DNA of 64,000 nt, from contig NC_092637.1 in NCBI RefSeq assembly GCF_039555335.1, forward strand, positions 3,250,472-3,314,471. The letters are read 5' to 3'. Both the position numbers and the translations under genes were made by a program. This document shows, one piece after another, positions 10,395 to 41,598 of the stretch; positions within the stretch are counted from its first letter, which is position 1, and every line of letters starts with the position of its first letter. The notes beneath the pieces are model-generated. The model was not told the DNA's origin. It worked only from the letters and a program-made list of their open reading frames with translations, and did no database searches. Source of the stretch: Amphiura filiformis. Lineage: Eukaryota; Echinodermata; Ophiuroidea; Amphilepidida; Amphiuridae.

Positions 10395-22375
<11,981 letters not shown>

Positions 22376-28988: not shown

Positions 28989-29478
28989 AGGGGTGGTGCA
29001 ATAATTATGTGTACCCCCGGGGGGAGAATTCTCAAAATGGTCTGCCAAAAATCGCTTGCCCCCCCTTTGGCCGTGCCAAAAACCTTTGCCCCCCCCTTTC
29101 GACGTGCCAAAAACCTTTGCCCCCCTTTGACGTGCCAAAAATCTTTGCCCCCCTTGCACATTCAAGATTTTGGGGAAACCACATTTAAAACCTTAAAGTG
29201 TCTAAACATATAATGCGAGCGCAGCGAGCAGGAAATTTTGCATATTTGAACGTGTTCGTAACGTTTTCCTACGCCATTTTAGGGCGTAATATAGAAACAG
29301 TGCCCAAAATATCTGTGCCAAAAATTGCTTGCCCCCCCCCCTTTCGACCTGCCAAAATCACTTGACCCCCCCTTTCGACCTGCCAAAAATGCTTGCCCCC
29401 ACCCTTTTGGCCTGCCAAAAATCTTTGCCCCCCTATAATTCACCCCCTGGGGGTACACATAATTATTGCACCACCCCT
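28989..29478. mobile_element. foldback element with GCCAAAAATCGCTTGCCCCCC units, copy 1
   Basis: The ends AGGGGTGGTGCAATAATTAT...GTACCCCC and its inverse are about 35 bases long. Inside, TGCCAAAAAyC(T/G)yTTGCCCCCC-type units repeat at roughly 27-30 base spacing on both flanks of a core with GCGAGCGCAGCGAGCAGG. Copies 30,030-30,452, 29,837-30,025 and 35,089-35,240 are related. Confidence 0.8.
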
Positions 29479-30029: not shown

Positions 30030-30452
30030 AGGGCTGTGCAATAATTATGAGCCCCCAGGGAGGGTAAAATTTCCAAATGGTTCGCCAAAAATTGCTTGCC
30101 GCCTCTCAGACCGCCAAAAATCGCTTGCTCCCCCCCTCAGGCACGGCCCATCAAAATTCTTTGCCCCACCCCTTGCGCATGGGATCCCAATTTACAAACC
30201 TTAAATGGTGCAGATGCATGTTGCGAGCGGAGCGAGCAGGAAAATTTGCGTATATAAGCGTGATCCGTACTGTTTTCCTAAGCCTTTTTAGAGCGTATTG
30301 TTTAAAAGGCGCAACATGAATGTGTGCCAAAAATCGCTTGCCCCCCTCTCGTCTTGACAAAATTGCTTGCCCCCCCTTTCGGCTCACCAAAATGTCTTTC
30401 TCCCCCCCCAATTTGACCCTCCCACAGGGCTCATAATTATTGCACAGCCCCT
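30030..30452. mobile_element. foldback element, copy 2
   Basis: AGGGCTGTGCAATAATTATG with AGCCC at the left and the inverse GGGCTCATAATTATTGCAC...CCCCT at the right. Internal units include CGCCAAAAATTGCTTGCC and CAAAAATCGCTTGCCCCCC, plus a GCGAGCGGAGCGAGCAGG core. Same family as 28,989-29,478. Confidence 0.8.
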
Positions 30453-32158: not shown

Positions 32159-32167
32159 CAGAAGCAG

Positions 32168-32859
32168 GGGTACAGGGCGTTAGTCCGACACGCCGCTTGT
32201 CCGACACTCCGCTAGTCCGAAACGCCGCTAGTCCGAATCTGAAATGCACTGCACCAGTCCGACACGCCGCTAGTCCGAATCTAACATACACTCTGCCAGT
32301 CCGACACGCCGCTAGTCCGAAAATGAATACCACTACGCTAGTCCGAAATTGAAAACCACTGCGCTAGTCCGAATCTGGAAAACACTCCTTCAGTCTGACA
32401 CTGCGCTAGTCCGAATCTAAAAAACACTGCGCTAGTCCGAAACTAAAAACCATTGCGCTAGTCCGAATTTGAAAAACACTGCGCTAGTCCGAATTTGAAT
32501 TGGGGGAAACACTGCGCTAGTCAGATATTCGGACCAGCGCAGTGTTTTTCAGATTCGGACTAGCGCTGTAGTTTTCAGTTTCAGACTAGCGCCATGTTTT
32601 CAGTTTCGGACTAGCGCAGTGTCGTACTGAAAAAGTGTTTTCCAAATTCGGACTAGCGCAATGTATTTCGGATTCGGACTAGCGGCGTGTCGGACGGAAA
32701 ACTGTGTTTTCAGATTCGGACTAGCGGCGTGTCGGACTGTTGCAGTGGTTTTCATTTTCGGACTAGCGCCGTGCTTTTCATTTTCGGACTGACGCACCTC
32801 TAAGTATAGGGAATTTGTTTTGTCGGACTAGCGGCGTGTCGGACTGAGCGGTGCACCCC
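32168..32859. mobile_element. foldback element whose arms are tandem arrays (CTAGTCCGA units)
   Basis: The left arm (32,168 to about 32,520) contains about 16 units built on CTAGTCCGA, such as GCGCTAGTCCGAATCTG and CGCCGCTAGTCCGA. The right arm (about 32,528-32,859) contains about 14 units of the inverse (TCGGACTAGCG). The outer ends GGGTACAGGGCG and GCGGTGCACCCC are rough inverses. CAGAAGCAG flanks both sides (32,159-32,167 and 32,860-32,868), a 9-bp target-site duplication. There is no coding capacity. Sea-urchin TU elements and Drosophila FB elements have similar tandem-repeat arms. Confidence 0.9.
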
Positions 32860-33168
32860 CAGAAGCAGAAGCATGTGCACATAAATAATACAGACGACGG
32901 TGGCCGACATTATTCATGTGGCAACAGCCAATAGCGTATTAAAACAAAACAGACAATATGACGGCAACACTGCCTGGACATTCATGATGTTGGACGCCCC
33001 GTGCCGAGCCCGAGCCTGCCGAGGTGCGTTTTAGCTCTATTGGCCCTGTTAGTGCGTTACAGAAAAAAAAGCATAAAATATATTTCTCAGTGCAATGTAT
33101 ACATTTTCACATGAAAATAAATATTTTTGGATTCAAAATGAATGTGAAGAAAAAAAATTATTATAGCC

Positions 33169-33241
33169 AGGCCCAGGAGTGGGAATCGATCTCGGGACCC
33201 TCTGCGTGGGAGGCGAAGACCTTACCGCTAGACCATGCAAA
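33169..33241 (-). repeat. tRNA-Gly(CCC)-like sequence, probable SINE head or relic
   Basis: On the minus strand: GCATGGTCTAGCGGTAAGG (A box), an anticodon loop CTCCCAC flanked by TTCGC and GCAGA, and a T-arm with GATCGATTCCC. The anticodon would be CCC. The acceptor ends do not pair, so it is not called a tRNA gene. Confidence 0.5.
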
Positions 33242-35653: not shown

Positions 35654-36299
35654 GCACCGCTTACGTTGTATGTCTTGTCCTCCTCTTTTCGAATAGCTCT
35701 GATGACACTTTAACATGCACAGGGATGAATCCTCCTGAACACGGGACAAACGGCTTTATGTGACTTCCGAATCACGGACGTTGCACATACACTACCTATA
35801 TCTGCACATGATGCTAAGCAGTGTATGGGGGCGAGAAGAAATTCTCAGGGGTGTGATTTTTCCGGATTTCCGGAATTTTGGGATTTAAAAAAAAATCCGG
35901 ATTTTCAAAAAAAAAAAAAATTTTTTTGTTGGTTTTGGAGTGGCCCTGGACCAAGAGCTAAATGCTTAACAGAGATGTCACATTTCCGGAATTTTCAGTT
36001 TCCAGATATGAGAAAATCTCCAATTTTAAAATGAAAATTCCTTAGATTAGAACCCTGACTGGATGATTTATAGACACACTGTACTTTGCAAAAATGGTGA
36101 TGCAATTTCTCATGTGTATGTTAATGATATGATACTGGAAGTATGTATTCACAGATAATAAATGTTTTTATACTATAAAGTGAAGTATTTTAACAGTTTC
36201 TCATTTTTGCATTTTACCCCATGAAATTGCATCTCCAGTGGTGCTCAAGTGTGTAAAACCCCTCTGGCTTCGGAGGGGCTTCGCCCCCTCTACCCCCAC
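35654..36299. other. non-coding, nothing firm
   Basis: Includes a passage with TTTCCGGATTTCCGGAATTTT at 35,859-35,880 and a poly-A/poly-T run at 35,908-35,927. No gene was recognised. Confidence 0.45.
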
Positions 36300-36575
36300 A
36301 AACTTTCCGTTAACACTTGAAGCCTCCGAAACAAAAGAAGTCTCCGAAACAAATTTCATTGCCTTAGGGTTTTTTTTCAAAAAGCACCAATCACACCCAT
36401 ATATCAACACTTGTTTAAATTTATGACATTCTACACATATCAAGTAACAATTTAATACATTGCAGATATCAGTATGAAACGCTCCCAATTTAGATGCGCA
36501 AAGATGATAATTAATCTTATTGTTGTTTCGGAGACTTCTTTTGTTTCGGAGGCTTCAAGTGTTAACGGAAAGTTT
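36300..36575. repeat. 53-bp perfect inverted repeat (GCCTCCGAAAC motif)
   Basis: Arms 36,300-36,352 and 36,523-36,575 are exact inverses by eye, containing TTAACACTTGAAGCCTCCG and AAGTCTCCGAAACAA. Further single pieces of the motif occur at 36,716-36,750 and near 36,914, so the element may extend to about 36,940. Confidence 0.88.
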
Positions 36576-37395
36576 GTATTAGGTCCCATTTTCATACGGT
36601 GATGTATATCTCTAATGTTTTAAAGACAAGTGACTTGAGGATATAAATGCTACATTTTGATAAATAGATTGGATGATCTCTTTTATTTATATTTGCACAG
36701 CTCGCTGAACAGTTTGTTTCGGAGGCTTCAAAAGAGTTAACGGAAAATCAACTCTATGAGTCAAGATTTTATAAAAAAATTTCAAAGCTTGCAAATCAGC
36801 TAATTTTTGTTACCCCTTTCAAGTTAAGTCATCAACTGTTATGAATCAAGAAGAAAATGAAGCAATAACAAAGAATTATGAATCAAAGCTATACCCACAA
36901 AGTTCGGAAAATGAAGCCTCCGAAACGACAAATATCGAAGTCTGGGGTCGAAGAAAACTTTATTAGTCATGCGAAATATACACAATATATGAAGAGCTTT
37001 GTTGCAAAACCCTTACATCCACTTGAGCAATTTTGAGAAAACATCAATAAATCATCAAAAATGATAATTTTCAACAAAAGCAGTTTTGGGCGGGATGCTT
37101 GGGTAGGATGAGCATGAAAGTCCAGAACATTTTTTTTTAAATCAACAAATTTTTGGATTGATGGGCAATAAGAAGATATATTTTTCAAAATAGGCACGTT
37201 ATTTTACTCAAAAACATTACTGGGATAGTCATTTTTGCCAAATGATTTGAGAGGTGCAAGTATTGATGAAGCCGTTGATCATGGCGAAAGTTTGAGACAG
37301 AATATACCCCCAAAATGTTGCATTTTTTAATTAATGGGTCTTGCAGTGCATTATTTTTCTGCCTATCTTGAAGTTTAAACTTCAATGCAGAGCCA
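36576..37395. other. partial repeat pieces, otherwise nothing
   Basis: Holds the two extra GTTTCGGAGGCTTC pieces noted for the preceding repeat. The rest is AT-rich non-coding sequence. Confidence 0.4.
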
Positions 37396-40731: not shown

Positions 40732-41447
40732 GTATGTATTGCTCCCAATTTCTGATATAAGTTCATGTAATGGATGGTGCGAACTGAAAATCAGATATTA
40801 GTTGGTGTGGGTTGCTTTATGGTACACCAATAATTTCATTGTGTCATCTTCACGCTGAACTACAATGTATCAAAGTGTCTATATGAATTGTATGTTTCAT
40901 CATTTTCCTGCTATGTAAATTTGAGATGTTCTGTGTGCAGAGGTACTGTGTCCTTATTGTCAACCTCAAGCATTATTTATAAAACATGCTATTTGTCTAC
41001 AAAACTTTAATACTGGATTTGACGAAAGAGCACCAGATATTTTTTTTTTGACTTGGTACATGGAGTCAGTGTTTCAAATAAAGTGGGCCCAAGGGCCCAC
41101 AGCTAATAAAAATCAGTCTGGGCCCACTGCATAAAAAAGCTACAGTACAGGTCTGATTGGCCCATGATTAGATTGTGTAATATTCATTGTTCTGATCGTT
41201 CTTCATAATTATTCATATTTCAACTTTTTGGGCAGTTACACGGGCCCTGAAAATTTCAAATCCAAGAGCCCAAATGGCCCAATGATTTTACTGCATAAAT
41301 ACTTACGAGTAAACATTGGATGAGGGTGGACTTGGTAAAAGTTTTGTGTGTGTGTGTGCGCACAAAGGGTAATGCTACAATGTACATAATTTCTTAAGCA
41401 TGCTTCTGTGGTTTATCCTTAGCATAAGAGAGCACAAAATACTAATA

Positions 41448-41520
41448 GGATTAGAGTTAGGGTTAGGATTTAGGGTTAAGGTAAGGGTTAGGGTAGGATT
41501 AGGGTTAGGATAAGGCTTGG
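41448..41520. repeat. degenerate telomere-like tract (TTAGGG)n
   Basis: GTTAGGGTTAGGATTTAGGG and variants over about 70 bases, in the opposite orientation to the tract at 21,554-21,663. Confidence 0.8.
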
Positions 41521-41598
41521 GATTTGATTGGTGTTCTTTTACATGAAGGATACACTGCTTTCGTGAATGTCTCTTCGACACAATGGCCTTTGGGTGTA

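Follow-up and report, generated by a model that had tools for sequence, protein, structure and literature searches.

A 64-kb stretch of contig NC_092637.1 of Amphiura filiformis, in the following called the window, contains a palindrome of about 693 bp whose arms are built from short tandem units. The locus raises the question whether this palindrome is a transposable element and, if so, to which superfamily it belongs and how its composite arms arose. The original prediction had described it as a foldback element. A foldback transposon is supported by what this single copy shows: a palindrome with composite arms, a duplication at its flanks and the lack of a long reading frame. Three features of the foldback class were found: arms that fold back, short tandem units within these arms and a flanking duplication of 8 or 9 bp. 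We regard the locus, with a probability of roughly 0.6, as a single copy of a foldback DNA transposon that is non-autonomous and of the cut-and-paste type, most likely a Mutator element (MULE/Phantom), whose repeats would be bound by transposase.

Architecture of the two arms

As placed from the palindrome, the predicted fold and the core positions, the whole element extends from 32167 to 32859 (32168–32859 if the duplication is 9 bp long). The left arm (32167–32526, + strand) starts with the terminal sequence GGGGTACAGGGCGT, followed by 15 units and, at the centre, by a degenerate core. The right arm (32527–32859, − strand), when read on the − strand, starts with the terminal sequence GGGGTGCACCGCT, followed by 13 units and, again at the centre, by a core. 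The two arms abut with almost no middle. The longest stop-free run in the element comprises 75 codons.

The window contains 18 exact copies of the 8-bp core TAGTCCGA, all of them located within 32181–32830: 11 on the + strand in the left arm and 7 on the − strand in the right arm. In shuffled windows the mean was 0.67 copies and the maximum 4 (100 shuffles). When allowing up to 2 mismatches, the element contained 18 matches in + and 15 in − orientation. After removal of off-phase matches (+ at 32526 and 32820, − at 32675) the left arm retains 16 cores and the right arm 14, the numbers of units that had been predicted. Tandem Repeats Finder likewise bore out the tandem arrays and reported periods of 16, 26, 42 (A+B), 68 and 94 at the element. 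The spacings of the units fall into two sharp classes: A units of 16 bp (10 units) and B units of 26 bp (15 units). Only three units have other lengths: one of 33 bp beside the hairpin tip and two, of 25 and 39 bp, in the right arm. The 39-bp unit is located at 32792–32830 (− strand), and one 26-bp unit of the right arm is made up of a 6-bp and a 20-bp piece divided by an off-phase match. The units had originally been described as variable; the variation is better put as two discrete kinds with three exceptions. Taking the commonest letter in each column gives CAGTCCGACACGCCGC and TAGTCCGAATCTGAAAAACACTGCGC for the two unit kinds, and by inspection the B unit is an A unit with an insertion of about 10 bp behind the core. 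The two spacings differ by about one helical turn, which is arithmetic and not evidence of function.

Within the fifteen 26-bp units the consensus is strongest at positions 1–9, which comprise the core and one following base, with a mean of 0.99 versus 0.78 for positions 10–26 (Mann-Whitney over columns, p = 4e-5), a figure that is flattered because the core served as the anchor for cutting the units, whose boundaries were placed by hand from the core positions. Core conservation of this kind is as expected of a protein-binding site; it could alternatively stem from homogenisation of the array and not from selection.

When the left arm was aligned to the reverse-complemented right arm, 261 of 299 ungapped columns were equal (87%), with 95 gap columns besides, and a repeat finder detected inverted arm pairs of up to 93 nt. 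Folded as single-stranded DNA, the element with its flanks reaches −273 kcal/mol versus a mean of −101 kcal/mol for 20 shuffles (z = −38). The great majority of the predicted pairs (260 of 274) join the left arm to the right arm. The predicted mirror-image arms made of tandem arrays are confirmed. The centre had been placed near 32,524. This agrees with the switch of unit orientation at about 32526, but the predicted tip of the hairpin is located at about 32504–32515. The innermost left segment (32485–32526, + strand) consists of the 33-bp variant unit and the degenerate core. At its start it pairs with the innermost core of the right arm (32485 with 32536), and the remainder forms the predicted hairpin tip.

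A palindrome of such stability is also compatible with a long hairpin RNA locus, i.e. a palindrome that is transcribed and whose hairpin is diced to small RNAs, whatever its origin. Long MULE ends have been linked to siRNAs in the available text of PMC6446971. However, the flanking duplication and the ends would still require a transposon origin and small RNAs would be a consequence and not the design. We therefore consider this explanation highly improbable.

Unit order in the left and the right arm

Read from the centre outwards, the order of units is XBBBABBBABABAAA in the left arm and BBBABBABABBXA in the right arm, with X denoting a unit of outlier length. A unit-by-unit alignment of the two arms scored 7.067, a value that 8 of 5000 random permutations of the right-arm units attained. 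When shuffling was restricted to units of the same kind, 32 of 5000 orders reached the observed register score; the best shuffled scores, 7.368 and 7.457, lie above it. The result was similar across five gap costs: the observed score was reached by 4, 15, 5, 5 and 1 of 5000 any-order shuffles and by 41, 41, 38, 34 and 34 of 5000 within-kind shuffles. Reversing the unit order lowered the score at all five gap costs.

Units at matched positions resemble each other more closely than other cross-arm pairs. For A units the mean alignment score per base was 0.875 at matched positions (4 pairs) versus 0.694 for the other cross-arm pairs (20), and for B units 0.637 (7 pairs) versus 0.527 (57). The matched pairs were chosen by the alignment itself, a choice that only the shuffles allow for, and the value of the matched B units is barely above that of same-arm neighbours (0.601, 8 pairs) and of all left-arm pairs (0.592, 28 pairs). 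Local differences between the arms were also found: two left units remain unpaired, two outer pairs are mismatched (0.04 and −0.33) and the 39-bp unit is present on the right only, with no good match in the left arm.

The variation among units had initially been attributed to unequal exchange within the arms. This proposal is not supported, as both arms have their unit kinds in agreeing order and units at matched positions outscore the shuffles. In view of the shuffle tests we reject the idea that the pattern arose mainly by unequal exchange acting in each arm independently. Since the two arms share a similar A/B order in register, this order probably predates the mirroring of the arms, or the arms exchange sequence by conversion, with some later local change. 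Most likely the array would have grown first as a minisatellite of 16- and 26-bp units in one arm. It would then have been copied to the other arm by inverted duplication, or the arms would have been evened by conversion. The register between the arms is a small, testable point on the making of composite arms.

Flanking duplication, superfamily and comparable elements

The element is flanked by a direct repeat, located exactly at the ends of the palindrome, that can be read as CAGAAGCAG (9 bp) or as CAGAAGCA (8 bp). The left copy is at 32159–32167 (32159–32166 in the 8-bp reading) and the right copy at 32860–32868. With a 9-bp duplication the ends of the element are GGGTACA and GGGGTGCA, one base out of step; with an 8-bp duplication both ends read GGGGTRCA and are equal at 7 of 8 positions in the arm alignment. 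The left copy could end one base earlier, with its last G being part of the element; the duplication would then be 8 bp long and the ends symmetric. From the sequence of the ends we slightly prefer this reading. The 9-bp reading is possible as well, since Tm1 has asymmetric ends inside 9-bp duplications according to the available portion of its description (PMC3169594).

We placed random junction pairs within the 64-kb window (spacing 691 ± 150, ± 3 bp slack at each end) and found a direct repeat of at least 8 bp in 24 of 20,000 placements, 8 of these 24 with at least 9 bp. The right copy is located within a short CAGAAG repeat (CAGAAGCAGAAGCA, 32860–32873), which contains an additional 8-bp match one repeat further, at 32866. 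The evidence for a duplication is somewhat weakened, because such a flank makes a chance match easier than at an average site, and the duplication could be partly fortuitous. Of the 9-bp target duplication originally proposed, the presence of CAGAAGCAG on both sides stands, but the duplication can also be read as 8 bp long and the right flank is repetitive.

The repetitive flank is relevant for a further explanation, according to which the locus is not a transposon but a local minisatellite with an inverted duplication, caused for example by replication template switching, and the flanking CAGAAGCAG is a coincidence in the CAGAAG repeat. Only one copy is present in the window, and a simple inverted duplication would also yield arms in register. 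However, such an event leaves no outer direct repeat, and repeats of at least 8 bp were as rare in random placements as given above. Furthermore, the outermost non-repeat bases GGGGTRCA also match in inverted orientation, the exact core is confined to the element and no other part of the 64 kb matches the element significantly. We consider a purely local origin unlikely.

For the foldback transposon, the length of the duplication together with the G-rich ends make Mutator the most consistent superfamily. In the available text of PMC6446971 the duplications of MULEs are given as 8–11 bp, a range that includes both readings. The first three bases of arthropod MULE ends are G or C in most cases (PMC13359780, available portion); here they are GGG on both sides, which is a Mutator tendency and not a definition. 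As judged from these sequence features, membership in Mutator is probable.

An 8-bp duplication also fits hAT- or P-type elements, the latter with a THAP-domain transposase. A foldback transposon of another superfamily, with the same anatomy and mechanism and a P/Galileo-like or hAT-like transposase, is therefore a possibility, though a rather doubtful one. In its favour, the locus can be read with an 8-bp duplication and symmetric GGGGTRCA ends, and Galileo of Drosophila, a member of the P superfamily, is an example of foldback arms that arose outside Mutator (PMC3573991, PMC3688188, available text); structure alone is thus no proof of Mutator. Against it, Galileo duplications are 7 bp long (PMC3573991), whereas the present element has 8 or 9 bp. 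We also inspected the left end by eye for a hAT terminus. The motif CAGGG, typical of hAT-type left ends, is present at 32165, and no matching right end or duplication was seen, so that this candidate was rejected.

The locus had been put forward as a candidate for an undescribed element family. A foldback design with repeat-built arms has already been described in Tm1, Tetris and Galileo, and the present element is a new example of it. Nearest in design is Tm1 of Meloidogyne (root-knot nematodes), a Mutator/foldback element with a putative Phantom-type transposase and MITE-like copies, as far as described in the available part of PMC3169594. Its arms contain 1–9 tandem units, mostly of 14 bp, and short terminal motifs, and duplications of 8–10 bp, mostly 9, were found in 45 of 53 complete elements (PMC3169594). 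The present element shares with Tm1 the arms of short tandem units, the better conservation of the units at their 5’ ends, the terminal motifs, similar duplications and copies without transposase. It differs in the sequence of the units (by eye), in their two lengths of 16 and 26 bp, in their numbers (13 and 15) and in the abutting arms. Tm1 also carries a histone hairpin and a GA-rich Motif D (PMC3169594).

According to the accessible text of PMC4079207, Tetris of Drosophila virilis is likewise a non-autonomous foldback element with tandem units in inverted arms and duplications of 8–10 bp. It has no known transposase and was put in Mutator by the length of its duplications and by analogy; the problem of filing an element in a superfamily without a transposase is thus the same for both. 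In contrast to the present element, Tetris has units of about 220 bp, arms of up to 1,735 bp and separate flanking and middle domains (PMC4079207). Rehavkus, in the excerpt available from PMC6446971, shows a 9-bp duplication, a minisatellite near one end and inverted ends of 26–400 bp, and has a PHD-finger transposase. Its minisatellite precedes the 3’ inverted repeat, whereas here both arms are minisatellite. Galileo resembles the present element in its foldback-like arms with tandem repeats and in its two-arm copies without transposase, and differs in the length of its duplications (7 bp) and of its repeat units (about 210 bp in one subfamily) and in its P-type transposase (PMC3573991, PMC3688188, available text).

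The Galileo arms are of interest for a possible function of the units. Their tandem repeats were shown to hold extra transposase-binding sites, and the authors call this point untested for Foldback and Phantom (PMC3688188, available portion). Because of this precedent we read AGTCCGA as the putative site of a transposase supplied in trans, and by analogy the repeats are probably transposase-binding sites, as candidates only. A transposase made elsewhere would bind the repeated AGTCCGA cores in both arms, pair the two ends and cut at the G-rich termini. Insertion into a target would then duplicate 8 or 9 bp; it is the flanking duplication that points to a cut-and-paste event with a staggered insertion of this length. 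Many cores might raise affinity or specificity, as proposed for Galileo. Given two spacings about one helical turn apart and their similar order in both arms, it is conceivable, though very unlikely, that the arms constitute a coded ladder of transposase sites whose register is kept by arm-to-arm conversion and sets the winding of a multimer at each end, i.e. a synapsis code and not a copy-number effect.

Sea-urchin TU and Drosophila FB elements, to which the locus had been likened, have inverted arms of short tandem units and short flanking duplications. The likeness to them is one of design. PMC4079207 lists D. melanogaster and the sea urchin among the hosts of foldback elements, and the term “TU elements” is absent from its available text.

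Search for copies and other repeats in the window

Comparison of the element with the remainder of the 64-kb window (BLASTN, word size 7) returned 13 matches of 12–18 bases with a best E value of 0.13, and there is therefore no recognisable second copy in the window. If other copies exist, they would form a compact animal foldback family whose arms consist almost wholly of candidate transposase sites. Such a family would be useful for asking why foldback arms gain tandem repeats and how arms seed satellites. As a single copy the element is mainly one more well-formed example. The element has an observed/expected CpG ratio of 1.38, compared with 0.61 for the window as a whole. Across 620 overlapping stretches outside the element the median was 0.58, the 95% point 1.06 and the maximum 1.76, so that the composition is unusual here, but not unique.

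We scanned 20 of the 53 ORFs of at least 100 aa in the window against Pfam, with an E-value threshold of 0.001 for ten of them and of 0.01 for the other ten, and none of these 20 matched a transposase family. Reverse transcriptase was found in three of them (one below the curated cut-off), an endonuclease and a sulfotransferase in one each, and a sub-threshold CobT match in one acidic ORF; 14 were without any match. The retroelements together with the sulfotransferase fragment suggest an animal genome. Rfam at gathering scores gave no matches.

A literature text search with unit strings of 9–13 bases did not find AGTCCGACACGCC among the matches listed, and no paper there had a transposon in its title. 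In prokaryote contigs (257 Gb) a 14-base pattern, too short for a collection of that size, occurred in at least 120 stretches, and none of 120 had more than 2 exact cores in 700 bp. In viral contigs the three-core array pattern was present in 35 and a stricter pattern in 3, all among the 35, while the A unit matched 16 contigs once each. Inspection by eye of the 35 viral core clusters (excerpts of at most 200 bases) revealed other repeats and no 16/26-bp units. No relative came up in these two collections, in which one could hardly be expected. As a separate observation, 14 IMG/VR contigs contain short arrays of TCGGACTA with ATTCGTTCACCTGTCC in mixed orientation; this repeat is palindrome-rich and by eye unlike the units in the window beyond the 8 bases searched.

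Several other repeats were noticed in the window. A second, smaller foldback-like element is located at 36298–36577. Its inverted ends of about 55 bp each contain two 18-bp units (GAAGCCTCCGAAACAAAA, GAAGTCTCCGAAACAA); a similar stray unit is found near 36715, and no clear flanking duplication was seen by eye. Two related short elements at 28990–29477 and 30031–30451 have the inverted ends GGGGTGGTGCAATAATTATG / GGGCTGTGCAATAATTATG. Their flanks are TAA/TAA and TTA/TTA, which corresponds to the TWA of PIF/Harbinger elements. Internally they contain TGCCAAAAATCGCTTGCCCCCC-like units that run in the same direction in both halves. The region 17261–18069 harbours an inverted repeat with 193-nt arms that are 90% complementary and 423 nt apart, with ends GGGATCTRRAATGAGCGTTT, possibly a short DNA element. 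About 300 bp to the right of the foldback element, 33165–33235 (− strand) resembles by eye the A and B boxes of a tRNA-derived SINE; ARAGORN with bacterial settings called no tRNA there and no gene overall. Finally, degenerate TAGGGT/TAGGAT repeats at 41446–41524 are telomere-like.
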